Source of the DNA: Pseudomonas putida W15Oct28
GTDB lineage: Bacteria; Pseudomonadota; Gammaproteobacteria; Pseudomonadales; Pseudomonadaceae
DNA length: 64,000 nucleotides
Reading direction: 5' to 3'
NCBI RefSeq assembly: GCF_000708715.2
Contig: NZ_JENB01000016.1
Location: 62,001-126,000 of the forward strand
Made by a program: the position numbers and the translations under genes. Within the stretch, counting starts at the first letter, position 1. Every line of letters starts with the position of its first letter. The notes below the pieces were generated by a model that was given only the letters and a program-made list of their open reading frames with translations, searched no databases and was not told the origin of the DNA. Shown here one piece after another: positions 6,726 to 22,336 of the stretch.

Positions 6726-6778
6726 GGGCTACCCGGTGCTATTTTTAGGATACCAAAACGGTGCCGGAGGTAGCTCTC

Positions 6779-8035
6779 ATGCCTACTCAAGCAACCCGCC
6801 TCTCCGACCGCCAGCTCAAGGCGGTCAAGGCAACTGGTAAAGATTTCGTCCTCAGCGATGGTGACGGCCTACAGCTTCGCGTCAGAGCCAGCGGCTCGAT
6901 GATGTGGAACTTCAATTACCGCGAGCCGTTGACCAGAAGCCGTATCAACATGGCACTCGGTCCTTACCCCGACCTCTCACTAGCCAATGCTCGGAAAAAA
7001 GCAGTCGAGGCGCGCGAGCTGCTTGCCCTGGGTATTGATCCCAAAGTCCAACGTGATGAGGTAAGGCAAGCCAAGCTTGCTGAGACTGAGCACACCTTCG
7101 AGAAGGTGGCCACCGCCTGGTTCGAGCTGAAGAAAGACTCGGTAACCCCCGCCTACGCCGAGGACATTTGGCGATCGCTTACCCTTCACGTTCTCCCGAG
7201 CATGAAGACAACACCGCTTTCAGAAATCACCGCCCCGATGGTCATCAAAATCCTCCGCCCAATCGAGGCTAAAGGCAGCCTCGAGACTGTGAAGCGATTG
7301 AGCCAACGACTCAACGAGATCATGACCTATGGGGTGAACGCCGGTTTGATACACGCGAATCCGCTCAATGGAATTCGTGCGGTGTTCAAGAAACCGAAAA
7401 AAGAAAACATGGCTGCGCTTCCACCAGAAGAGCTCCCCGAGCTCATGCTGGAGATCGCGAACGCCAGTATCAAGCGCACCACCCGATGCCTGATCGAATG
7501 GCAGTTGCACACGATGACTCGCCCCGTCGAGGCGGCGACTACTCGCTGGGCAGACATTGATTTTGAAAGGCGTGTTTGGACCATCCCTCCGGAGCGAATG
7601 AAAAAGCGCCGCCCACACAGCATCCCGTTGAGTGATCAAGCAGTCGCGCTGCTGCAATCACTAAAGACTCACAGCGGCCATCGCGAATACGTCTTCCCGT
7701 CAGACAGAAATCCGCGTACCCACGCCAATAGCCAGACTGCCAACATGGCGTTGAAACGCATGGGGTTCCAGGATCGCTTGGTCAGCCACGGCCTGCGTTC
7801 GATGGCGAGCACCATCTTGAATGAGCATGGGTGGGACCCGGAGCTCATCGAAGTCGCACTAGCTCACGTAGACAAGGATGAGGTGCGCAGCGCCTACAAC
7901 CGAGCCGACTACATCGAGCGCCGGCGTCCGATGATGGCTTGGTGGAGTGAGTACATCCAGAAAGCCGCGACCGGCAGCCTGCTCGCCTCAGCATATGGCC
8001 AAGTCAGAGACAAGAACGTAGTGCCGATCCGCTGA
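6779..8035 (+). CDS. P4-type tyrosine integrase of the genomic island
   Basis: A 418-residue site-specific recombinase. The N-terminal DUF4102-type arm-binding domain is visible in 'LSDGDGLQLRVRASGSMMW' and 'LGPYPDLSLANARKKAVEAR' (residues 25-90), and a core-binding domain follows (about 100-200). The catalytic domain has Arg248 ('MTRPVEA'), His337 and Arg340 in 'HGLRS', His363 in 'LAHVDK' and the nucleophile Tyr373 in 'SAYNRADY'; all five are present. The ATG at 6779 has GGAGG 9 bp upstream; a GTG at 6761 is less likely. Its position beside the ssrA-like remnant and the GGTATCCC pairs marks it as the enzyme that inserted the island. It should also excise it, probably with a directionality factor I did not find. 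Confidence 0.92.
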   Translation: MPTQATRLSDRQLKAVKATGKDFVLSDGDGLQLRVRASGSMMWNFNYREPLTRSRINMALGPYPDLSLANARKKAVEARELLALGIDPKVQRDEVRQAKLAETEHTFEKVATAWFELKKDSVTPAYAEDIWRSLTLHVLPSMKTTPLSEITAPMVIKILRPIEAKGSLETVKRLSQRLNEIMTYGVNAGLIHANPLNGIRAVFKKPKKENMAALPPEELPELMLEIANASIKRTTRCLIEWQLHTMTRPVEAATTRWADIDFERRVWTIPPERMKKRRPHSIPLSDQAVALLQSLKTHSGHREYVFPSDRNPRTHANSQTANMALKRMGFQDRLVSHGLRSMASTILNEHGWDPELIEVALAHVDKDEVRSAYNRADYIERRRPMMAWWSEYIQKAATGSLLASAYGQVRDKNVVPIR

Positions 8036-9026: not shown

Positions 9027-10424
9027 ATGCAACTGCGCGAAGTACAAGGGCCACCACGCCCCTTGTTGGAACAGCAGATCACGCCCCTACCCTACCCGGT
9101 CGCGGCACTGGGCGATCTATTGGGGCCTGCCGTGGAACGCATGGCCGATGTGATCGGTGTGCCATCCGCCATGGCCGCGCAATCTGTTTTAGCCACGGCA
9201 GCTTTGGCGAGCCAAGCGCACGGCAATGTTCACCTGGACGGTCGAATCTATCCGTTGTCTCTGTACTTGCTGACGGTGGCTTGCTCGGGTGATCGCAAAA
9301 GCGCGGTGGACCATATTGCGCTGCAGGCCGTACGTGACTGGGAAAGACAGCAGTGGATCGCCTATGGCGAACAACTCAAGGCGCACCGAGTTGCAATGAG
9401 TCTCACCGCGAAGTCACCGACCTCGAAAAAGTCAGCACAGCCAGCGCTGGACGCCCTGCCTGAACCTGTTCAACCAAGACTGCTCACTGCTGAGCCGACC
9501 ATTGAGGGCCTGATCAAAAGCCTGTGCCACGGCTTGCCCAGCATGGGGCTGTTCAGCGATGAGGGTGGGCAATTTTTGGGCGGCAGCACCATGAGCAAGG
9601 ACAACATGATCAAGGCGATCACTCACTTGTCGACGCTGTGGGACGGTAGCCCGATTGATCGGTCGCGCGCGATGACTGGAGAAAGTCTGCGTGCCTATGA
9701 TCGCCGCCTCAGCATGCACTTGATGCTTCAACCCCGCCTGGCAGACCGCTTGCTACAAGACGCTGATATCAAAGACCAGGGGATCCTGGGACGCTGTCTG
9801 ATCAGTTGGCCAGAGCGTCTGGTTGGACAACGGCTGTACAGAGCCATCGACTTGACCCGAGATCCAAAGGTGCACCTGTACCAGCAGCGGATTACCGCGC
9901 TCATGCAGAAGCCTTGGTCACGCCATAGAGACGGCGGCCTCAACCCTGTAACCCTAGAGTTAAGCCCCCGCGCCCGTGAAGCATGGATTGCCATTCACGA
10001 CACCATTGAATGCGAGTCTGGGGAGTTCGGCGAGTTGGTCAACGTCCAAGCTGCAGCGAGCAAGGCCGCCGCGAACGTACTACGCATGGCTGGTGTGATG
10101 GCGGTGGTTGAGGAGTCGACTGTATTGGAAGACATGCACATTCAGCGCGCCTCCACGCTGATGGATTACTACCTGGCCGAGAACCAACGCCTGACTGAGC
10201 AGGAACCACCGAATAAGCTTCGGGCAGAGGCTGATTGCCTGCTGCGCTGGTTGATAAAGAAGAACTGGCCACCCTTTCGCCTGCGCGACCTTACGCGCAA
10301 CGGCCCCCGCTTTGCCCGTAAAAGCACGCGGCACACCTTCGAGTTGTTGCTGCAACTGGTTGCCCATAACTGGCTGGACAATGACGGGGACATATTCGAG
10401 GTGCGCCATGTTCCGACTCAATGA
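9027..10424 (+). CDS. DUF3987 / YfjI-family protein
   Basis: A 465-residue protein of the DUF3987/YfjI family, common in integrated elements and often placed where primase-helicases sit. 'LTVACSGDRKSAVDHI' (near residue 88) is the degenerate P-loop-like motif of the family, 'MGLFSDEGGQFLGG' (near 172) resembles its Walker B region, and a helical C-terminal part ends with a winged-helix-like segment ('LRWLIKK...FRLRDLTRNGPRFARK'). GGAGG precedes the ATG. Its end overlaps the next start by 17 bp, indicating one operon with the small protein and the second integrase. A replication role for the element is plausible from context but not shown. Confidence 0.8.
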   Translation: MQLREVQGPPRPLLEQQITPLPYPVAALGDLLGPAVERMADVIGVPSAMAAQSVLATAALASQAHGNVHLDGRIYPLSLYLLTVACSGDRKSAVDHIALQAVRDWERQQWIAYGEQLKAHRVAMSLTAKSPTSKKSAQPALDALPEPVQPRLLTAEPTIEGLIKSLCHGLPSMGLFSDEGGQFLGGSTMSKDNMIKAITHLSTLWDGSPIDRSRAMTGESLRAYDRRLSMHLMLQPRLADRLLQDADIKDQGILGRCLISWPERLVGQRLYRAIDLTRDPKVHLYQQRITALMQKPWSRHRDGGLNPVTLELSPRAREAWIAIHDTIECESGEFGELVNVQAAASKAAANVLRMAGVMAVVEESTVLEDMHIQRASTLMDYYLAENQRLTEQEPPNKLRAEADCLLRWLIKKNWPPFRLRDLTRNGPRFARKSTRHTFELLLQLVAHNWLDNDGDIFEVRHVPTQ

Positions 10425-10767
10425 CGCCGTGCGCCGCTATCGAGCGCAACATCGCTCGCCGACCGAGTTACGGTGTGTCGCTGTCACTGCCACCACTTTG
10501 TCGCCACGTGCCAATCCAGATACGGCGGGGGTTGTCGCCAGTGTCGCCGCTGTCGCCGCTCCAACAACTGAGTCAACCGACCTCGCTCGGCTTATCGAGC
10601 AGTTGCAAGAAGAAGGGGCTTTGCTGCAACGCCGCGAAAATACCCTCCTCATCCGCCCAGCTCACTGGGGACAGTTGGACACCATCGGCCCCCACTGGAA
10701 AGCCCTACTGCTGCTCCTACAAACCAATGATCAAGGTGAAGACAATGGCGCTGGTCGGTCGGCGTGA
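10408..10767 (+). CDS. Small island protein with TubC-like docking pattern
   Basis: A 119-residue protein starting inside the end of the DUF3987 gene and ending inside the integrase start, so translational coupling is likely. The C-terminal 50 residues ('LARLIEQLQEEGALLQRREN', then 'LIRPAHW...HWKALLLLLQ') follow the helix-strand-strand-helix pattern of TubC N-terminal docking domains (small protein-interaction modules). The middle is a low-complexity Val/Ala/Thr linker encoded by GTCGCC repeats. It may dock onto the DUF3987 protein or the integrase. The fold call is tentative. Confidence 0.55.
   Translation: MFRLNDAVRRYRAQHRSPTELRCVAVTATTLSPRANPDTAGVVASVAAVAAPTTESTDLARLIEQLQEEGALLQRRENTLLIRPAHWGQLDTIGPHWKALLLLLQTNDQGEDNGAGRSA
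10534..10557 (-). repeat. GTCGCC repeats, inverted copies of the 8065 set
   Basis: GTCGCC occurs at 10534, 10543 and 10552 with a 9-bp period (a fourth copy at 10500). Read on the minus strand the units are GGCGACAGC, GGCGACACT and GGCGACAAC, the same unit as at 8065. They lie inside a coding sequence, where they encode a Val-Ala stretch. Confidence 0.5.
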
Positions 10768-11724
10768 CGGTCGCAACTTTGGCTACGGTCGCCAACTGAG
10801 CTACGCCGGTAGGCAGGCACTGGAAGATCTGTTTGCCGGCGGCCACTTCGCCACCGTCAAAGCACACAGCGATCGCTGGCAAGCCTTCGTGCGCTGGTGC
10901 CGATCGGAGGACGGCCCCGGTTACAACGATGCACGTCAGATTGATCGACAGACGCTGGAGGACTACGTCGCATACCTGCGCCAGCAGATCCAGCAAGGCG
11001 AACTGTGCATCGCCACCGCGCAAAACCGCCTGAGCAGCGTTAACCGAACCCTCGCCGCGCTGCGCGGTGATCAGGACGTGAGAGTCATCAGTCCGAGCCA
11101 GGCGTTGGGACAGCACCGCCCAACGTACGCACCCGTGCGCCGGACGGGCAAGATTATCAAGACGTACAGCGAGTGGCGCTGTCGCTGATGGAACACCAAT
11201 ACGAACGGGTGGCCGCTATCATCATGTTGACCCGGACTACCGGTATGCGCCTGCGCGAAGCGATCCTGGCAAACCTTCCACGCTTGCACCACGAGGCCGA
11301 GTCGCTTGGTCGGATCAATATCCAGGACGGCACCAAAGGCGGGCGAAGCGGGGCATCAGCGCCGCGTTGGATCATCGCCAATGAAGAGGTCAAAGCCTCA
11401 CTCTTATTGGCGCGCAACGCATCGCCGATCGGCAGCCAAAACTTACTGCACCAGGCCGAAGCCTACACCGCGTTCTTGCAACGAACGGTGCTCCCAGCTC
11501 GCGAAATTCTGCATAAGCACGGGATAAAGGGCTTTCATGAACTGCGCGCGGCCTACGCTTGCGAACGTTACACGCAACTCACCAGCCGTGCTGCACCAGT
11601 CAATGACAGCCACGGCTACCACATCGACCGCGATCTTGATCGGTGGGCGCGTCAACAGATCAGCCTTGAACTTGGACACTACCGGATTGATGTGGTGTCG
11701 GCCTACATTGGTAGCCGATCATGA
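10745..11724 (+). pseudogene. Second tyrosine integrase-like gene, frameshifted
   Basis: Two frames form one integrase-domain protein. The first (10745-11188) gives an N-terminal core-binding region ('KAHSDRWQAFVRWCR', 'LEDYVAYLRQQI'); the second continues from within it to 11724 with the catalytic region: 'TTGMRLREA' with the first Arg, 'LRAAYACERY' in the HxxR position, and 'SLELGHYRIDVVSAYIGS' with His and Tyr. Codon reading in the second frame upstream of its GTG at 11173 continues sensibly ('DGQDYQDVQR'), and the first frame loses sense after 'QHRP', so the shift lies near 11117-11125. It may be a real mutation or a sequencing error. The start overlaps the preceding gene by 23 bp. Confidence 0.7.
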
Positions 11725-12014
11725 CCAAACCTTTTTATATAGCGCTGTTCCTCAGCGGAGTCCAGGCCGGTTCGAAGAGCACCCAGCAACGGCATCTACG
11801 GCAAGCGCGAATCATGCAGGCAGCCATCCAACGGCGATGGCAGCGAGACAATCCGTGGACTTGGCAGCTAAAGCATGTGCGCTGGTTTCTTCACCATTAC
11901 CTGAAGGATCACTCTATAGCCAGCCGATACTACTATCGACTTACTGCCGTTTTGATCTTGATGAGGATGGGTAACGGCCAAGCGCGTAGGGTGATCGGGC
12001 GAGTAAATCCATGA
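11721..12014 (+). CDS. Hypothetical protein downstream of second integrase
   Basis: A 97-residue basic protein starting within the stop region of the second integrase (ATGA overlap). It is rich in Arg, Trp and aromatic residues ('RRWQRDNPWTWQLKHVRWFLHHYL', shown only in part as a helical segment) and has no recognised domain. The tight coupling suggests it belongs to the integrase operon, perhaps as a partner. No function is assigned. Confidence 0.6.
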   Translation: MTKPFYIALFLSGVQAGSKSTQQRHLRQARIMQAAIQRRWQRDNPWTWQLKHVRWFLHHYLKDHSIASRYYYRLTAVLILMRMGNGQARRVIGRVNP

Positions 12015-12140
12015 AAGCAGCTGCTGACAGTTTCGCCGGTTCTGAAGTAAGCTGATGCATGGCCAAGGGCCATACCCCAAACCTATGGGGCTATCAAGCG
12101 AAAGCTAAAAACTTGGTCGCAAAGCTTAGGAGGAGCGTTG

Positions 12141-13931
12141 ATGAGCACAGGAAAGCCCAAGCGGATTACGCTGAATATTTACTTACTCAAAGAGGCATCG
12201 AACTCGGCCTCTGAGTGGACGGATAAAGATTTCATAGCAAGCCCCATGGGTTCCAATGGAAAACCTAAAAAAATTGGCACTGAACAGTATCCTCTTGGGC
12301 CTGAAGGGGAGTATGGCACTCTTTTCATTCGAAAACCTTTTATAGAGGCCGCTCCAGAATGGTTAAATTTCATTCAGAAGGGTTTAGATAAAGGAGTCAA
12401 AACATCCAAATGGACGAATAAGAGCATTTCGGCCATTTTGATTGTGAAAAATGGCGCTCGCCAGTTTGCTATCTCTTTTGGATATGGCCGCTATCTGATC
12501 GAGCCAAGGTTAATCGAGGATAGATTTGGTATAAAGGTCGTTCTAAACAGTGTCTCACCAGACAAGATAGCATCAATTGATCGTCAAACATTCGACGCAT
12601 CCCCACGACTGAGCAGGACACAGACGATCAAAGCAGCATCTGTGTCAGACTACATGATTAATGCTGAGCAGGACTTGCTTCGCGGACTAGTAGGACACAC
12701 TAAAAGCGCCTATTCAGATATTTTTGGAAAAATAATAGCCGGGATTGATTCATTCAAGGCATCTGTTGCGATAGATCTCTCTGACCTAGGAGACTTCCTG
12801 CAACTGGCATTCGAGAGATCCACCTCTAAAGACTATCTTGCTAGAGATGCAGATGGACATGCCAGCGAGTTTTCTTGGGTTGAAAACTTACTCCCGGTCA
12901 AAGACAAAGACATTTCCGAAGTACTCGACACAAAACTTTGGCAATCTCTATCCTCTAGTCAAACCAAAAACATGTGGCTCGCCATACCAGACATAATAGA
13001 CTGGACCTCCGTCACAGGGTTTGCTTACAAACGAACACCTGACAATGACGATATCGACCCAGTGCTAGATTTGGAAAGATTTTTGTCTACATTTAGACAA
13101 GGAGCAAATTTAGACACCCTTAAACGACGCGAAATTTTTCTCATTCTTTCGAACGGCAGCCCTCCTAGACCATTTCCTGCTTTTAAATGCCTCTACGCGG
13201 AAGTCAAGCACGATGCGAACTTATATATTTTAAATACAGGAAACTGGTTTAAGGTAGAAGCATCTTTCCAGACCGCGGTGGAAAAATACTTCTCGGAGCT
13301 ACCGAGAAAGCCGTTCGCGCCACCTTTCGCAGAGTATTCGCATGCTGGCGAAGGTCCCTACAATGAGTACGTTTGCGCTCAAGCCCAGAGTTCCCACGCA
13401 ATGCTTGACAGGCAAATGATAAAATTTGGTGGTAGCTATGATAAAGTTGAGGTCTGTGACATCTACAGAGTGAAAACTCAAACTGAGCGGGGGGAGTTTA
13501 TCCATGTTAAACGCGGCCGTGGTTCATCGACGCTAAGCCATCTCTTCGCGCAAGGTTTTGTGGCTTCGACCCTCATGGTGAGAGAACCAGGCTTTGTAAA
13601 AGATGTAAACTTACAACTAGAAAAGAATAAATTTGACGCAATCCCTGTTAATTTCGAAGCACGCGGCAATGACGTAATCTACGCAATCATTGATGGCCCC
13701 GCTTCAACAGCTCTAGATATACCTTTTTTCAGTAAAGTGACCTTACAGAACTACGGGAAGACCATCAGCTCATATGGCTACGTGGTAAAGCTTATGCATA
13801 TTCCGGAGTCTGCCGCTCACCTTGCTAGTATCGCCCAAAAAACTGCAGCAAAAGCCTCCAAAAAGAAAACAGCCGTTACAAAGAAAAAAACAGTCCGTAA
13901 GAAACCTCTTCAGCCAAAGTCCGGGCCTTGA
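12141..13931 (+). CDS. TIGR04141 / DUF6119 'sporadically distributed' protein
   Basis: A 596-residue protein; the ATG at 12141 has AGGAGG 7 bp upstream. The opening 'RITLNIYLLKE', the segment 'FAISFGYGRYLI' (near 115), 'LARDADGHASEFSWV' (near 235) and 'FIHVKRGRGSSTLSHLFAQG' (near 455) match what I know of TIGR04141 (DUF6119) proteins, which occur patchily and often near restriction or mobile genes. No enzymatic motif is evident. The last 30 residues are a Lys/Ala/Thr-rich basic tail ('KASKKKTAVTKKKTVRKK') likely to bind nucleic acid. The gene is clearly AT-richer than its neighbours, indicating separate acquisition. It converges on the type I restriction operon. A defence role is inferred from context only. 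Confidence 0.75.
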   Translation: MSTGKPKRITLNIYLLKEASNSASEWTDKDFIASPMGSNGKPKKIGTEQYPLGPEGEYGTLFIRKPFIEAAPEWLNFIQKGLDKGVKTSKWTNKSISAILIVKNGARQFAISFGYGRYLIEPRLIEDRFGIKVVLNSVSPDKIASIDRQTFDASPRLSRTQTIKAASVSDYMINAEQDLLRGLVGHTKSAYSDIFGKIIAGIDSFKASVAIDLSDLGDFLQLAFERSTSKDYLARDADGHASEFSWVENLLPVKDKDISEVLDTKLWQSLSSSQTKNMWLAIPDIIDWTSVTGFAYKRTPDNDDIDPVLDLERFLSTFRQGANLDTLKRREIFLILSNGSPPRPFPAFKCLYAEVKHDANLYILNTGNWFKVEASFQTAVEKYFSELPRKPFAPPFAEYSHAGEGPYNEYVCAQAQSSHAMLDRQMIKFGGSYDKVEVCDIYRVKTQTERGEFIHVKRGRGSSTLSHLFAQGFVASTLMVREPGFVKDVNLQLEKNKFDAIPVNFEARGNDVIYAIIDGPASTALDIPFFSKVTLQNYGKTISSYGYVVKLMHIPESAAHLASIAQKTAAKASKKKTAVTKKKTVRKKPLQPKSGP

Positions 13932-14189: not shown

Positions 14190-17100
14190 TTAGTAATGTT
14201 CCTCAATATAGGCATATGCCTTCTGAAACAGTTCTTTGTCCTTGCTTAGGCCAAATTGCGCCAAAGTCAGCATTAGTGCTTTCTGGATTTCGCGTGGGCC
14301 ACTGTTGGAGTTCTGCCAACCCTCAAAGCGAGTAGCGTTGACAATTTTATCGATTTGCTCAACCACATCACCAATTAGCTTCGGCGTGGTTTCCGGACGT
14401 GTTTCCAGGAAGAGTTTGGTCAGTGCCTGCTTCTTGTCTGCTTCCGTTACCACCGCGTCACCGGTTTCACGCTCAGCCTGAACCGTATCTTTAGCGGCAT
14501 CCAGTAGGCCCTTAAGCCAATCGATGGCCTTAATTACACCCGCTTCGTATTCTCGCCGCAGTTTCTCCAAGCGCTCGCCCAGCTCGACAAATACAGCCTC
14601 GCTATGGCCGCGCAGACGTCCCATCAGGTCTATTTCCAGCCGGCGCGCACGTTTTTCCTGCTCTTTCTCGGTCAGGGTGAAGATCGCGTGCTCATCCATG
14701 ATCAGCTCATCGATGTCATCGCGTATGCGACTGATATCGGTGTGCTCATGAATCATCTTGATGGTCTCGGGTCCTAACGCGGCCCAGACCAGCGCACCCG
14801 TTTGACCAACCGGGCGTACCGACTCATAAATTTGCGCCAACCATTTGTAATCCTGGCGGTAGGGCGTCAGGAAAAGGTCGGGATTGATGGCAGACCAGAG
14901 TTTGGCAAGCACACCAAAGGCTGCTGCAAACTCATCGCGGGTTTTGTTGTCCGGCAAGCATTCCTGGGCGGCCAGTATGCCGTCGAAGCCTACCTGGGTA
15001 CGGTCCACATTCGGGAAGAAGGCAAGACAAAGCTTCAACTGCTCTGGCAGTAACTCCTTGAATTTCTCAATACCTTCGACGATCCCGTCGATCTCTTCTG
15101 GGTTATAGGCCAGCGCCGTGCGCAGATTTTCGAATACGCCCAGATAATCGATGATCAAGCCCATACGCTTGACCACCCCATCCGCCTCATACAGACGGTT
15201 GGTACGGCACATGGCCTGTAGCAATGTATGGTCGCGCAGTGGCTTGTCCAGGTACATGCAGTAACAGATCGGCGCATCGAAACCGGTCAGCAGCTTGGCG
15301 GTCACGATCAGCAGTTGCAGGGGTTGCTTCGGGTCTTTATAAGTTTCCAGCAGACTTTTCTGCGCCTGCTCTTCACTATCGAATTTCTGCCAGCGCTCAA
15401 AGTCGATTTGATTAATCGGTAGTTCGAGCTCGTCCTTCCACTTGCTCCAGTCCTTGTTGAGCTTGCCGTTCTCATCCTTCACCGGCGCCTGGTCGAGATT
15501 CATGACAACCTCTAGTGCGTCGAAACCCAGCTTGTTACCAAGCAGGTAATACATCTGCACGCAGGCATCGCGGTCATAGACCACCACCATAGCCTTCATC
15601 TTTTTCGGCTGTACATGGCTGGTGAAGTGTTCGGCAATGTCGGCGCTGATGGCTTCCATGCGCTTCGGTGCCTTGAGCATCACGGCCAGCTTACCGGCGC
15701 GCTTGGACAGAAGAGTTTTTTCATCCTCGTCCAAGTTGTTGTCTTTGACCAGTTGTTCGAACTCTTCATTGATCGCCTCACGGTCGACCCGTAATTCGGC
15801 TAAACGAGGCTCAAACTTTACCGGGTTAGTGGCGCCGTCGCGGATTGACTGTTTGTAGCTGTAGCGGTTCATATAGCGGCCGGGGTCCTCATCGGCGCCG
15901 AACAGCTTGAAGGTATTTCGCTCGATACCAGATATCGGCGTGCCGGTCAGGCCGTAGAAGTGAGCATTGGGCAGCGCCCAACGCATCTTCTCGCCCAAGC
16001 CGCCTTCCTGGGTGCGGTGGGCTTCATCCACCAGCACGATAATGTTATCGCGATTGTTTAGACCAGCTAGGTTGTGCTCATCAATCTCAACATCTTTGAA
16101 CTTGAAAATGGTGGTGATGAGGATACCGCGACTGTCCTGCTCGATATGCTCACCGAGCTTTTTACAGCTCTGCACCTTGATCAAGTTTTTCACGTCGGCG
16201 CCGCCGAAAGTCTCACTAAGCTGGCTGTCCAAGTCGCGGCGGTCGACCACGATCAGCACAGTGGGATTTTTCAGATCGTCGTCGGCACGTAACATTTTGG
16301 CCGCGTAGAGCATCAGCAGCGACTTGCCCGAGCCTTGAAAATGCCAGATCAGGCCTTTTTTTACGTAACCCTGTTTGACCCGCTCAACAATCTGCTTGGC
16401 CGTCTCAAACTGTGGGTAACGCGGCAGTAATTTGATGCGTTTGGGTGGCGTATCTTTACCGGTTTTATGGGTAGAAAACAGCGCAAAAGAGGCCAGCAGT
16501 TGCAATAGGGTTTGTGGGTTCAGTAGCCCTTCAGTGCTCGCCAGCACGGAGGCCAGGGTAGCAGGTATATCCTCACGCTGATCGGTTTGGTGCCAGGGGC
16601 CCCAATCCTTGACACGGGCATTGATCGCTCCATAGGCAAAGGTTTTACCCTCACTGGCGAAGCACAGCAGGTTGGGTACGAAGAAAGCTTTCGCATGCTG
16701 CCAATAACTCTTTTTGCCGCCCATGAAGTCAGCGGCACCGTCTTGCCAACTGACGCTGGGGCGAGTGGCGCTTTTCACTTCACCTACCACCAGCGGGATG
16801 CCGTTCACATACAGCACAATATCGAAGAACACCTCGCCAGCCGCTATGTAATGCACCTGCTGGGCCACCACAAACTGGTTGTTTTTGAGGTTGTCGAAGT
16901 CGATCAGATTGATGGTGACGTGCTCACCATTCTCGCCGAAGGCCAGGGTTTTTTCGCCCAGCAGCCACGCTTGGAAATTTTCGTTAGCCCTGACCAAACC
17001 ACTGTTCGACGCCTCCAGCAGAACACCGCGCAGCTTGTGGATCACCTCATCAGCAGAATCCGGCTGTTTTTCGATAGCTGGGTTTAAAAAGCATAACGCG

Positions 17101-17240
17101 TCTTTGAGCCACTCATCGACAAAGATATCCTGTGCCTTCTTGGGCAAATTTTCGCCGTGACAGTAAGTCCACTTTACTCCGCTTAAATTTCTTAAACGAT
17201 CGATTATTCCATTCTCGGTGACGGTTTGCTCATTAAACAT
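14190..17240 (-). CDS. hsdR: Type I restriction enzyme, R (restriction/translocase) subunit
   Basis: A 1016-residue HsdR. The nuclease domain has Asp140 ('EVFFDIVLY') and Glu154-x-Lys156 ('VVGEVKSA'), the PD-(D/E)xK core. The SF2 motor has Walker A 'FQGSGKS' (301-307), DEAH at 405-408 ('VLVDEAHRTQ'), motif III 'YGLTGTP' and a C-terminal helicase lobe with 'LLIVTAKLLTGFDAP' and 'MCRTNRLY'. With HsdM and HsdS it translocates DNA and cuts far from unmodified target sites. It is the last gene of the operon, 12 bp after hsdS. All catalytic motifs look intact. Confidence 0.95.
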   Translation of the reverse strand: MFNEQTVTENGIIDRLRNLSGVKWTYCHGENLPKKAQDIFVDEWLKDALCFLNPAIEKQPDSADEVIHKLRGVLLEASNSGLVRANENFQAWLLGEKTLAFGENGEHVTINLIDFDNLKNNQFVVAQQVHYIAAGEVFFDIVLYVNGIPLVVGEVKSATRPSVSWQDGAADFMGGKKSYWQHAKAFFVPNLLCFASEGKTFAYGAINARVKDWGPWHQTDQREDIPATLASVLASTEGLLNPQTLLQLLASFALFSTHKTGKDTPPKRIKLLPRYPQFETAKQIVERVKQGYVKKGLIWHFQGSGKSLLMLYAAKMLRADDDLKNPTVLIVVDRRDLDSQLSETFGGADVKNLIKVQSCKKLGEHIEQDSRGILITTIFKFKDVEIDEHNLAGLNNRDNIIVLVDEAHRTQEGGLGEKMRWALPNAHFYGLTGTPISGIERNTFKLFGADEDPGRYMNRYSYKQSIRDGATNPVKFEPRLAELRVDREAINEEFEQLVKDNNLDEDEKTLLSKRAGKLAVMLKAPKRMEAISADIAEHFTSHVQPKKMKAMVVVYDRDACVQMYYLLGNKLGFDALEVVMNLDQAPVKDENGKLNKDWSKWKDELELPINQIDFERWQKFDSEEQAQKSLLETYKDPKQPLQLLIVTAKLLTGFDAPICYCMYLDKPLRDHTLLQAMCRTNRLYEADGVVKRMGLIIDYLGVFENLRTALAYNPEEIDGIVEGIEKFKELLPEQLKLCLAFFPNVDRTQVGFDGILAAQECLPDNKTRDEFAAAFGVLAKLWSAINPDLFLTPYRQDYKWLAQIYESVRPVGQTGALVWAALGPETIKMIHEHTDISRIRDDIDELIMDEHAIFTLTEKEQEKRARRLEIDLMGRLRGHSEAVFVELGERLEKLRREYEAGVIKAIDWLKGLLDAAKDTVQAERETGDAVVTEADKKQALTKLFLETRPETTPKLIGDVVEQIDKIVNATRFEGWQNSNSGPREIQKALMLTLAQFGLSKDKELFQKAYAYIEEHY

Positions 17241-17252
17241 GACAGCCTCGGA

Positions 17253-18440
17253 CTATGAGATAACTTCTTCAATAATGCGACTTCTTAAAATCGAATGAGA
17301 CCTCGACAAACTACCCAGTTGCTCGCGAACATCCAGGAAAGATGAAATAGTCGAAAAAATCAGCGACTGCTCCTCAATCGGAGCAACTGGAACAGGGATT
17401 TCTGACAAAGTCCTCTTATTTATCTTTTTCATGCTAGCGCTAGTTCCAGCAGCCACCCGCTGTATTGATCTTCGGCCATACGGAGAAAGAAGATATGCTT
17501 CGAGATACTCTTTGACAATCAATTTTTCATTTAGACTCAACCGCATCATCGTGTCTGGAAAAATGACTTTATCTTTACGAGGATTATAAATACCAACAAG
17601 ACCAACCAAGTCTTGAGTGTTCGCCCTTGATATTAGGAAGTCGCCCTCCTTAAGTTCTAAAGCAGCATCATAATCCGAGATGGCAATTGGCTTCAGCTCT
17701 CCGTCCAAAACGTATCCATCAGTCGATAGATTGTTTAAGTTTAAGACGTAACTCCCAGTATCACTTGATACCTCATTAGCCGAGAATCCACTTTGCGGAA
17801 CACATGTCAGCAGATCCCCAAGGCGCATTGTCTTCCAATCATCAGGTAGTGCAACCTGGCTTGCACCTCGCTCATAATAATTCTTAAAAAATTTTAAATA
17901 TAAACTTCTTATATTTTCCGCAGAGGATATTTGCAGGTCAATTAGCTTTTCGCTTGCCTCTTGGGATTTGACCAGCAAGTTAAGGATTGCCTCTTGCGCG
18001 AAAGAGCAATCTACAGTGAATTCCCAAGAGGCCAATGCTGAGAACTTAGTTCTAGGTGACAGAGATCCAGATGACGTAGCAATCGCGACTCGCCAAAAAG
18101 CATCGGATTGAATTATAAACCGCAACAAGCCAGGAATTATTTTAGACGGCTTTGGTTCCAAAACAATAATATCTCCCGAGCAGATGCCATCAAACTCTGC
18201 TACGGCACATTTCTTTAAATAAGGACGACGCTTCCCAAGAAGAATTTGCCCTTTTTTAAACACGCGCGTGAAACTCGGGCTATCTTCAGCCACAGAGCCC
18301 CAGCGCTTGATTTTTAATGAGCCAGAGTCCAAATGCTCTAATCCGACATAGCGACAATACCCCTCCGCAATCGGATCTCTTGTTGTAGCTTTGATCTCGC
18401 GACAAATATCGCCAAATCGCGCACTAAATATGCCACTCAT
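17253..18440 (-). CDS. hsdS: Type I restriction enzyme, S (specificity) subunit
   Basis: A 395-residue HsdS with two target-recognition regions separated by a central helical repeat ('AILNLLVKSQEASEKLIDLQ', near 165-185) and a matching C-terminal one ('VPVAPIEEQSLIF'), the usual half-site arrangement. It decides the bipartite target of the complex. Its start shares the A of the hsdM stop (TAATG), so the two are translationally coupled. It is AT-richer than hsdM, as is common for exchangeable specificity genes. The recognition sequence cannot be predicted by eye. Confidence 0.9.
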   Translation of the reverse strand: MSGIFSARFGDICREIKATTRDPIAEGYCRYVGLEHLDSGSLKIKRWGSVAEDSPSFTRVFKKGQILLGKRRPYLKKCAVAEFDGICSGDIIVLEPKPSKIIPGLLRFIIQSDAFWRVAIATSSGSLSPRTKFSALASWEFTVDCSFAQEAILNLLVKSQEASEKLIDLQISSAENIRSLYLKFFKNYYERGASQVALPDDWKTMRLGDLLTCVPQSGFSANEVSSDTGSYVLNLNNLSTDGYVLDGELKPIAISDYDAALELKEGDFLISRANTQDLVGLVGIYNPRKDKVIFPDTMMRLSLNEKLIVKEYLEAYLLSPYGRRSIQRVAAGTSASMKKINKRTLSEIPVPVAPIEEQSLIFSTISSFLDVREQLGSLSRSHSILRSRIIEEVIS

Positions 18441-19951
18441 TAATCACCCACCCCGACGCTTAAGACTTCGAGACTCTTAAATAGCCGTCTAGCTCTGCCT
18501 TTTAACTTCACACGATTAACTTTCCAAACTTCAATGGCATGTTCAACATCATGTGATTCGTCTTCATCGCGGGCCTGTACATAGAGCGGTATCGATAAAT
18601 TATGCTGATTCTCACGAATCGTCTCGATTTCCACCAGCGCGGTAATGGCCGGTATCTTGTCCGGGGCACAATAGGCTTCGATCAGCACAGCTAGATCGTC
18701 ATCCGAAAGCCGGCTTTGGGCGCGCTCACGGGTGACACTCTCGACGCCATTGATGAACAGGACTTTGCCTTTGCGCTCAGTAGGCTTGTTGCAGTTGAGC
18801 ACCACGACGCAGGATTCCATCGGCGAGTTGTAGAAAAGGTTAGGACCAAGGCCGATCACTGCTTCGATAATGTCCGACTCGATTACCTCTTTACGGATTG
18901 CCTGCTCTGAGTCTCGGAACAGCACCCCGTGGGGCCAGAGCATGGCGGCGCGACCAGTGTCGGGCTTCAGGCTTTTGATAATATGGGTGTAAAAGCCATA
19001 GTCGGCACAGCCCTGGGGTGGTACGCCATAAAGGTTACGGCCATAAGGGTCGGCCAAGAACTTGTCACGATTCCATTTTTTTATGGAGTACGGCGGGTTG
19101 GCAAAGATCACATCAAACTGTTTGAGCTGGTCGTTATCGATAAACTTGGGATCTGCCAAGGTATCGCCGCGCAGTACTTCGAACTCTTCGATCTCGTGCA
19201 GGAACATGTTCATACGGGCGATGGCGGAGGTGAGCAGATTCACTTCCTGGCCATAGAGCTTAACACTGCGCCATTCTTTACCTTCGTCCCGCAGGTCCAT
19301 CACCGCGTTTAGCAACATGCCGCCGGTGCCGCAGGTGGGGTCATAGGCAGTTTCACCGGGTTTGAGACCCATTATACGGGTCATCAGGTGCACCACAGTA
19401 CGATTGGTGTAGAACTCTGCGGCGGTGTGGCCAGAGTCGTCGGCGAACTTCTTGATTAGGTACTCGTAAGCTTCGCCTAGGTCGTCCTGGGCCACCGACT
19501 TGATGCCCAGAGGAATCTTGCTGAAGTGCTGAATCAGGTCGATCAACAAGTGGTCGGGTAGACGCTCTTTGTTGGTCCACTGGGCATCGCCGAATACGCC
19601 GTGCAGGCGTTCGTTGTGGATCTCGATCAGGCGTAAGGCATTCTGGATGGCTTCGCCGATGTTCTTGCTGGTATGGCGAACCTTTTCCCAGCGCGCCTCC
19701 TGAGGAATATGGAAGCGGTGAAACATGGGCATGGCCGCATAGTCGGCATCGCCCTCGTTGACCTCCATGGCCTCGACATACTCTTCAAGGTAAACGTCGG
19801 ACAGGCGTTTGTAGAACAGTAAGGGAAAGATGTACTGCTTGTAATCGGAAGCGTCAATCTGCCCGCGCAGGAACTCAGCCGCTCCCCAAAGCAGGTCCTC
19901 AAGTTTCTTTTTTCCAAGTTGAGAGGCTTGGTTTTTCTGATACTCAATCAT
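18440..19951 (-). CDS. hsdM: Type I DNA methyltransferase, M subunit (second copy, NPPY type)
   Basis: A 503-residue HsdM. The N-terminal domain is visible in 'LEDLLWGAAEFLRGQIDASD', the AdoMet motif I in 'YDPTCGTGGMLL' (near 200) and the catalytic motif IV in 'IFANPPYS' (near 290). It should methylate adenine within the site read by HsdS. The ATG at 19951 is chosen because it matches the family N-terminus; a longer frame from 19984 exists. It overlaps the end of the 58-aa gene by 8 bp and is coupled to hsdS. A related but clearly different M gene lies upstream in the same operon. Confidence 0.93.
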   Translation of the reverse strand: MIEYQKNQASQLGKKKLEDLLWGAAEFLRGQIDASDYKQYIFPLLFYKRLSDVYLEEYVEAMEVNEGDADYAAMPMFHRFHIPQEARWEKVRHTSKNIGEAIQNALRLIEIHNERLHGVFGDAQWTNKERLPDHLLIDLIQHFSKIPLGIKSVAQDDLGEAYEYLIKKFADDSGHTAAEFYTNRTVVHLMTRIMGLKPGETAYDPTCGTGGMLLNAVMDLRDEGKEWRSVKLYGQEVNLLTSAIARMNMFLHEIEEFEVLRGDTLADPKFIDNDQLKQFDVIFANPPYSIKKWNRDKFLADPYGRNLYGVPPQGCADYGFYTHIIKSLKPDTGRAAMLWPHGVLFRDSEQAIRKEVIESDIIEAVIGLGPNLFYNSPMESCVVVLNCNKPTERKGKVLFINGVESVTRERAQSRLSDDDLAVLIEAYCAPDKIPAITALVEIETIRENQHNLSIPLYVQARDEDESHDVEHAIEVWKVNRVKLKGRARRLFKSLEVLSVGVGD

Positions 19952-20120
19952 TTTTACTAATCTTGTCTGATAGCTGATGAGCAATCTGGCTCAGGTCGGC
20001 GAAGCGTTTATCTGATCCGACGGGATATTCAAGTTGGCGTTGATAAAACTGCTTGTACTGCGACTCGGCATGTTGCTTGATGAACTGCGAGGTGTCGCTG
20101 CAGGCGCTATCCGTGCTCAT
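19944..20120 (-). CDS. 58-aa protein embedded between the two hsdM genes
   Basis: An ATG at 20120 overlaps the TGA of the first hsdM (ATGA), and the frame runs 58 codons to a TGA at 19944-19946 that overlaps the start of the second hsdM by 8 bp. This exact filling of the gap, with coupling at both ends, argues for a translated gene. The product is hydrophilic and probably helical ('SQFIKQHAESQYKQFYQRQL' at 11-30, then 'FADLSQIAHQLSDKI' at 40-54) and has no signal peptide. I do not recognise it. It could be a small partner or adaptor of the restriction complex. Confidence 0.65.
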   Translation of the reverse strand: MSTDSACSDTSQFIKQHAESQYKQFYQRQLEYPVGSDKRFADLSQIAHQLSDKISKND

Positions 20121-21616
20121 AGCTCAAACCCTTCCTTGATGAGCATTTCCTCCAGCTCCTGCTCGGCCTGCTCCAGCGCAGCCAGTTTCTGTCGAAAGTC
20201 CTTGAGCGCCTCTTCGCCAGTGATGGCTTCCTCTTCCAGCGGCTTTTGCACATAGCGCGCAATGTTCAGGTTGAAGTCGTTCTCGGCAATTTCACTGAGC
20301 GGCACCCAACGCGCTACGCCTTCTAATGCTACCGCAGAGGGGCCCTGCTGATACTGCTCTAAGTAGATCTGGAAAATCTGATCCGCCTGGGCATTGCTCA
20401 GGGTGTTTTGCGCACGGCCTTTGGTGAAAATCTCCTCGGCATTGATGATAAGTACATGGTCCTGATGCTCATCAGGGCGCTTCCTGCGCAGCAACAGGAT
20501 GCACGCCGGGATAGCTGTGCCGTAAAACAGGTTAGGCGCGACGCCGATAATGGCTTCGATGCGGTTTTCTTTGAGCAGGCTGGTGCGGATTCGGTCCTCT
20601 GCCGCACCGCGGAACAGCACGCCATGAGGCAGAACCACCGCCATTCGCCCATTGGCATTGAGAGAGGCGAACATATGCTGAACCCAGGCAAAATCACCGT
20701 TGGTTTTCGGGGCCAGGCCGTGAATGTTGCGGCTGTAGGCGTCCGCCGCCCATTGTTCATGCCCCCACTCACTGAGACTGAACGGTGGATTAGCGATCAC
20801 ACAATCAAAGGTTTCGAGCCGGTCGTAAATCAGGAACTTTGGCTCACGCAGGGTATCTCCACGAACAATCTCAAAGTCTTCCTGGCCGTGGAGGAACAGG
20901 TTCATGCGGGCAATTGCTTCAGTAGTTAAGTTCTTTTCCTGACCTTTAAGCTTCAGCAGCCGGGGATCACCCGCACTATCTCGAACGTGGTGAATGGTCT
21001 CCAGCAACATGCCGCCCGTACCGCAAGCCGGGTCATAAACGCTTTCACCCGCTTTGGGATCAAGAATGTTGACCATCAGCCGCACAATAGTCCGGGGGGT
21101 GTAGAACTCACCGGCTTTCTTGTTGGCTTTGTCGGCAAAACGCTTAATCAGGTATTCGTAGGCGCGACCCATATCGTCGTTACGAACGCTGGCAACCCCG
21201 AGATCGACTTTATTGAAGTGGTTGAGCAGCGTTGCAAGGAGCTCATCCGACAAGCGTTCTTTATTTGTCCAGCTAGCGTCACCGAATATGCCATGCAGTT
21301 GAGGGTTCGCTTGCTCTACGCCCAGAAAAGCGTCCCTGAGTGCTTTACCGATGTCGCGAGACTTGGCGAACACGTCATCCCAATGGCTGCCAACAGGCAC
21401 CTGAATGCGATGGAAGATCTTCTCACGCGCAAGGTCCGCGCTGCCGACCTTGGCCAGTACCTCTTCAAACTCTTCGTCGTAGACATCGCAGATCCTTTTG
21501 AAGAACAGGATCGGGAATATATAGGTTTTATAGTCAGAGGCATCGATGGGGCCGGTGATGATGTGCGCGGCGTGCCATAGGTGGGCTTCAAGGTCTTTTA
21601 AATTAATCAGGGTCAT
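20117..21616 (-). CDS. hsdM: Type I DNA methyltransferase, M subunit (first copy, NPPF type)
   Basis: A 499-residue HsdM and the first gene of the operon. It has the N-terminal domain ('LEAHLWHAAHIITGPIDASD'), motif I 'YDPACGTGGMLLE' (near 195) and motif IV 'VIANPPFS' (near 275), plus a long charged C-terminal helix ('LAALEQAEQELEEMLIKEG'). It aligns along its length with the second hsdM but differs at most positions, so it is an ancient paralogue, not a recent duplication. Whether it forms its own M2S complex, a mixed M1-M2-S complex, or has lost its S gene cannot be told from sequence. Promoter elements should lie between 21617 and 21700. Confidence 0.93.
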   Translation of the reverse strand: MTLINLKDLEAHLWHAAHIITGPIDASDYKTYIFPILFFKRICDVYDEEFEEVLAKVGSADLAREKIFHRIQVPVGSHWDDVFAKSRDIGKALRDAFLGVEQANPQLHGIFGDASWTNKERLSDELLATLLNHFNKVDLGVASVRNDDMGRAYEYLIKRFADKANKKAGEFYTPRTIVRLMVNILDPKAGESVYDPACGTGGMLLETIHHVRDSAGDPRLLKLKGQEKNLTTEAIARMNLFLHGQEDFEIVRGDTLREPKFLIYDRLETFDCVIANPPFSLSEWGHEQWAADAYSRNIHGLAPKTNGDFAWVQHMFASLNANGRMAVVLPHGVLFRGAAEDRIRTSLLKENRIEAIIGVAPNLFYGTAIPACILLLRRKRPDEHQDHVLIINAEEIFTKGRAQNTLSNAQADQIFQIYLEQYQQGPSAVALEGVARWVPLSEIAENDFNLNIARYVQKPLEEEAITGEEALKDFRQKLAALEQAEQELEEMLIKEGFEL

Positions 21617-22259: not shown

Positions 22260-22336
22260 TGGTCGGGACGGAGTGATTCGAACACTCGACCCCTTGCACC
22301 CCATGCAAGTGCGCTACCGGGCTGCGCTACGCCCCG
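22260..22336 (-). tRNA. tRNA-Pro (anticodon GGG)
   Basis: A 77-nt tRNA on the minus strand with CCA encoded. The acceptor stem CGGGGCG pairs with a GTCCCG end (one wobble pair), the anticodon stem is CTTGC/GCAAG with loop ATGGGGT (anticodon GGG), and the T-loop is GTTCGAATC. It lies next to the merR gene as in other pseudomonads. It was considered as the island's target, but no copy of its 3' end exists at the far boundary. Confidence 0.96.

Follow-up and report, generated by a model that had tools for sequence, protein, structure and literature searches.

A type I restriction-modification operon with two different methyltransferase genes in Pseudomonas putida W15Oct28, very probably of the PacII kind

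Classical type I restriction-modification (R-M) enzymes contain two copies of one methyltransferase subunit (M) and place m6A on both DNA strands, as described in extracts of PMC9613975. The 64-kb stretch of Pseudomonas putida W15Oct28 DNA analysed here (the window) contains a type I operon with two distinct M genes, one specificity gene (S) and one restriction gene (R), which raises the question of how two different M subunits are used with a single S. The first-pass annotation considered either a mixed M1-M2-S enzyme or an M1 working alone with another protein, and called both unusual. The word is apt against classical enzymes with two identical M subunits per S, although the m6A/m4C kind had already been described before the PacII structure (extracts of PMC9613975, crediting its reference 12).

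The operon and its closest solved relatives

The operon consists of four R-M genes, not the five implied by the first-pass annotation, which are transcribed from the minus strand in the order M1, M2, S, R and are closely packed in the ORF list. M1 (20117-21616) encodes an HsdM-type subunit of 499 aa with an NPPF motif, expected to form m6A, and M2 (18440-19951) an HsdM-type subunit of 503 aa with an NPPY motif, expected to form m4C. In the automatically compiled ORF list M2 begins at a TTG (19984); the ATG at 19951 was taken as the start because the resulting N-terminus, MIEYQ, aligns with the first residues of the M2 chain of PacII. M2 overlaps S (17253-18440) by one base, and a typical R subunit, the restriction and translocation protein HsdR (14190-17240), is found 12 bases past S. 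A 58-codon ORF (19944-20120, minus strand), apparently an in-frame remnant of a RhuM-family gene, is located between M1 and M2.

Domain assignments over the Pfam cut-offs were HsdM_N and N6_Mtase in both M1 and M2, Methylase_S in S, and HSDR_N and SWI2_SNF2 in R. In NCBIfam, R scores above the hsdR cut-off and also matches the EcoR124II HsdR, and M1 and M2 fall below the hsdM cut-off (227.7 and 218.7 bits vs 242.75). The two complete M genes with one S and one R are thus present as first annotated, and M1 and M2 do align throughout, with 46% identity over M2 residues 12-482. A search of the 6.3-Mb genome with M2 at E<=0.001 gave matches only at the M1 and M2 places.

In a search of solved structures, M1 matched chain A of 7vru with 1058 bits over residues 1-499, and M2 matched chain B with 1054 bits over residues 1-499 of 503. 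Identity amounts to ~92% for M1 and ~91% for M2 over 499 residues each, by manual count on the printed alignments. The opposite PacII chains gave 457 and 454 bits for M1 and M2 respectively and other solved M proteins at most 220 bits; the M subunit of EcoR124II reached 197 and 174 bits, where the matching PacII chains reached about 1050. From its subunit set, the PacII paper (PMC9613975) and the fitting residue numbering, we take 7vru to be the PacII M1M2S-DNA complex; 7vs4 is a further structure of this system.

The M1 and M2 residues named in the extracts of PMC9613975 and looked up here are conserved in the window with the sole exception of R11 of PacII M2, which is replaced by Gln. In PacII numbering, the residues kept in M1 are D25, E170, F171, R252, N276, F279, S280, R336, T367 and R401, and those kept in M2 are K15, D19, R29, D33, D36, K38, R130, K167, K168, H175, F180, N285, P286, P287, Y288, S289, K291, R346, F373, S376 and R410.

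According to the same source in part (PMC9613975), two families of M subunits are found in non-canonical type I systems: M1, which has NPPF and forms m6A, and M2, which has NPPY and forms m4C. PacII marks adenine on one DNA strand and cytosine on the other, and the purified M1M2S enzyme produces both m6A and m4C. During assembly S is bound first by M1 and second by M2; M1 and S without M2 give a partial enzyme and M2 alone is unable to bind S. The holoenzyme is expected by the PacII authors to be R2M1M2S.

Pairing, motif IV and phylogeny of M1 and M2

Relatives were taken as the best 80 of 572 confirmed M2 relatives in our genome collection. In a comparison of gene order in other genomes, as proposed in the first-pass annotation, M1 was found upstream of M2 in 78 of the 80 loci of this set, being partial or broken in three of the 78 (L033, L040 and L063) and cut by a contig end in a few others. 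M1 is missing from L032 and L071, whose contigs measure only 3.6 and 4.8 kb and leave 2.1 and 1.2 kb ahead of M2. The annotation had named frequent absence of the first M gene from related operons as counter-evidence, and no such pattern was seen among these best 80 of 572.

Motif IV is equally regular in these best 80 loci. With the window included, 77 of the 79 M1 rows have F and 79 of the 81 M2 rows have Y. The few remaining rows are gaps that belong to the partial M1 genes of L033 and L063 and to early frame breaks in the M2 genes of L050 and L070. The M1-M2 pairs of this set occur in both bacterial and archaeal contigs. Within the genus, an M2 relative at E<=1e-150 is present in 9 of 398 genomes, the window's own included. 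A partial DNA match to the operon was obtained for four of 5,426 E. coli genomes. One of the four was inspected; it has the same arrangement of two M genes, S and R, next to which lie an integrase and a tRNA-Leu.

For the control, 57 related genomes were searched with TIGR00497 and 22 of them had a match at E<=1e-40. Sixteen of the 21 distinct control HsdM ORFs that are neither M1- nor M2-like have NPPF, three have NPPY and two have neither by pattern (one further place without a locus was left out), whereas the M1-M2 pairs in the control genomes (G000, G014, G025 and G400) combine F with Y in four out of four cases. NPPY is also found in M.TaqI, an adenine enzyme (PMC3874165 in part). Since three of the 21 other HsdM ORFs carry it, NPPY is ruled out as sole proof of cytosine methylation, and pairing together with family placement is diagnostic instead. 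A second candidate marker, R29, is described as typical of M2 but is given as occurring in ~80% of classical enzymes (extracts of PMC9613975); it was discarded as an M2 diagnostic because of that frequency and because 32 of 79 M1 rows, from the window and the best 80 of 572 relatives, also have R at this position.

A tree was built from 23 M1 and 24 M2 sequences, representing the window and 23 hand-chosen loci of the 80 with one short M1 dropped, together with 12 of the 21 other M sequences. M1 and M2 each lie on one side of a branch, with support of 96/87 and 100/100 respectively, and the window falls within both groups. M1 and M2 together are split from the other M sequences with 100/100 support, several of the other rows being long-branched and uncertain in place. 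Both groups span several phyla, and M1 and M2 are two old sister groups. Their 46% identity and separate multi-phylum groups rule out a recent tandem duplication, in agreement with the first-pass annotation, which had judged the two genes too different for such an origin.

Specificity subunit, assembly and competing explanations

The S subunit resembles PacII S in its first half. Residues 7-181 match the cytosine-side TRD1 of PacII S (7vru chain C) with an E-value of 2.8e-33, and the C-terminal half is not PacII-like, its best solved match being S.BsaXI. Among the three named PacII base contacts in TRD1, R75 and R76 are kept and H94 is replaced by Asp. We aligned S from the window and 73 loci, having dropped seven of the 80 in which no S match on the M2 strand reached the first 40 residues. 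Across these 74 sequences from the best 80 of 572 M2 relatives, R75 is invariant, R76 is kept in 65 and replaced by N in nine, and at H94 there are 35 sequences with D, 34 with H, three with T and two with K. This split between D and H places the window S in one of two common sub-kinds of TRD1, and its half-site may be other than CCC. As the second domain is of another kind and H94 is Asp, the recognition sequence probably differs from that of PacII.

Homology to PacII is the ground on which the assembly order, base specificity, strand asymmetry and restriction of the window system can be predicted. M1 (NPPF) would bind S first and M2 (NPPY) would then join, giving a 1:1:1 M1M2S methyltransferase in which S would read a two-part site. 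The N-terminal domain of S would present cytosine to M2 for m4C formation on one strand and the C-terminal domain would present adenine to M1 for m6A formation on the other. R and M1M2S would form a complex, R2M1M2S going by the expectation of the PacII authors, which would cut unmodified incoming DNA. One M2 per S in a 1:1:1 assembly also fits the apparent M2-S fusions that we found in six of the best 80 of 572 loci, where M2 and S appear as a single open frame of 878-938 codons with the S matches inside and M1 separate (L002:8001-10766, L047:5830-8535, L060:8001-10637, L068:3253-5961, L072:3513-6329 and L074:8001-10682).

Gene order, M1/M2 identity, active-site residues, TRD1 homology and M1-M2 co-occurrence, together with the F/Y pairing, the tree and the apparent M2-S fusions, speak for the operon encoding a PacII-type non-canonical m6A/m4C type I R-M system with a 1:1:1 M1M2S, to which we assign a probability of about 0.94. 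Counting against it are the limited diagnostic value of NPPY and R29, the Asp in place of H94 and the second recognition domain that is unlike that of PacII. It is very improbable that both M subunits methylate adenine in the classical manner, the second being a spare and S working with either as a classical M2S. Motif IV alone is indeed non-decisive on the base, given the three control HsdM ORFs with NPPY, but M2 is ~91% identical to PacII M2, whose m4C was shown and which cannot bind S alone (both in extracts of PMC9613975), and every readable row from the best 80 of 572 M2 relatives conforms to the F/Y pairing.

A system that is of the PacII type by descent and no longer works so here, for example because it is silent or without restriction, is somewhat less probable again. 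The decay of the neighbouring operon gene to a 58-codon remnant would be in keeping with such a loss, but each of the four R-M genes is an open frame of full length and the dN/dS values of M1 and M2 are low (0.05-0.10 in four pairs of the window with relatives). Least probable of all is that M1 and M2 belong to two separate enzymes, one of them using another S or protein; apart from the fact that type I genes are exchanged in general, we found nothing in its favour, while the pair stands together in 78 of the best 80 of 572 relatives, the genome has no further M2 relative at E<=0.001, and PacII uses both M subunits with one S (PMC9613975 in part). The same co-occurrence, and the partial enzyme that PacII M1 forms with S only (same extracts), leave the earlier suggestion of M1 acting alone with another protein without support, and it is the mixed M1-M2-S methyltransferase, the other half of that suggestion, that is strongly supported by homology to PacII.

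The M1-M2 junction, the surroundings and known systems

The first four bases of the 58-codon ORF (20120-19944) overlap M1, and its last eight lie inside M2. A 59-codon version was found at the same place in L001, L002, L003, L029, L083 and L085 (identical in L029 and L085, which may be one species twice), and in L004 and L086, identical here, the ORF has decayed in another way and contains an internal stop. In L084 and L087 the junction is occupied by a 346-aa protein, assigned by Pfam to the RhuM family in the case of L084 (E 5e-113, domain at residues 69-318). The short ORF keeps the first 14 and the last 44-45 residues of this protein and its middle is missing; in the 58-codon ORF only the two protein ends remain, and the loss of nearly the whole RhuM domain identifies it as a remnant. 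A new subunit was set aside for the same reason, as both ends match the RhuM-family protein with the middle missing. The dN/dS of the short ORF was 0.46-0.78 in six window pairs and 0.28-2.23 over all pairs, with very few sites. It is best read as what a single in-frame deletion would have left under weak constraint, and it is perhaps kept for translational coupling.

M1 and M2 are at least 140 bp apart in 48 of the 78 loci with both genes (best 80 of 572 M2 relatives); the stretch in L040 looks like the rest of its broken M1. Ten junction proteins were searched against Pfam. The two genes in L005 correspond to DUF4062 and to SLFN_AlbA_2 with a Fic-like C-terminal domain, GmrSD_N was found in L067, RhuM in L084 and a sub-cut-off PD-(D/E)XK match in L043, and the remaining five of the ten had no match. 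NCBIfam gave one match among nine junction proteins, also below the cut-off. The two-gene insert of L005 (5859-8001) is resembled, by the starts of the proteins, by inserts in L006 (5913-8001), L008 (5835-8001), L015 (5925-8001), L030 (5901-8001) and L039 (5892-8001).

The occurrence of RhuM-like genes next to R-M genes was pointed out in 2013, with a proposed toxin role (PMC3710099 in part), so the junction RhuM is not new in kind; compared with the RhuM-family genes in R-M operons of those extracts, the window ORF keeps both protein ends and has lost nearly all of the RhuM domain. A joint reading of the junction, which we consider unlikely, is that m6A/m4C type I operons might keep a permanent site there for accessory defence genes (GmrSD-like, RhuM, DUF4062 with SLFN_AlbA_2, and others without a name), which would act as a second layer linked to the balance of M1 and M2. 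The window RhuM gene would then have been cut in frame to the 58-codon ORF and kept to pass ribosomes from M1 to M2, helping to set the 1:1:1 ratio.

Several further features were observed around the operon. A DUF6119/TIGR04141 gene (12138-13931, plus strand; Pfam and NCBIfam) faces the 3' end of hsdR from outside the operon, and L001, L002 and L004 have a relative with 90-97% identity on that side of hsdR, which L003 does not. A literature search for DUF6119/TIGR04141 returned no pertinent account. On the plus strand, 9027-12014 encodes a DUF3987 protein and, after it, overlapping ORFs of which one weakly matches Integrase_1; this stretch may be a decayed mobile-element module. Further out, the region is flanked by a tyrosine integrase (6761-8035, plus strand) and a tRNA-Pro (22260-22336, minus strand). 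We rejected an island delimited by repeats of the tRNA-Pro 3' end, since no second copy with up to three mismatches was found within the 64-kb window and no tRNA-Pro was found in five Pseudomonas loci with the operon, whose flanks are of limited length. Plasmid carriage was likewise rejected: among 72,556 plasmid records there was no DNA match to the operon, and the protein search at E<=1e-150 gave only two distant M2 relatives. Promoter-like sites numbered 10 vs 6.6 (sd 2.6) in shuffles and terminator-like sites 9 vs 9.0, so neither count was informative.

The window operon adds a member to the known m6A/m4C type I systems of the PacII kind. A mixed M1M2S enzyme has already been described and solved, so that the finding answers no open question; Morgan et al. 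(2016) are said to have given the first description of such systems. A close PacII relative with a different S should help to identify another mixed m6A/m4C recognition site, and the M1-M2 pairs, the apparent M2-S fusions and the often filled junction offer modest clues to assembly and accessory genes.

Among known systems the window operon is closest to PacII, with M subunits that carry NPPF and NPPY and are ~92% and ~91% identical to their counterparts and with a homologous first recognition domain in S, and it departs from PacII in its other second recognition domain and in the Asp at the TRD1 contact H94. With the classical EcoKI and EcoR124 systems it shares an S with two recognition domains, an R of the EcoR124 kind and the same M families. 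The classical trait of one M gene per S is absent: those enzymes use one M in two copies, whereas the window has two distinct M genes, each of an old family, for one S.
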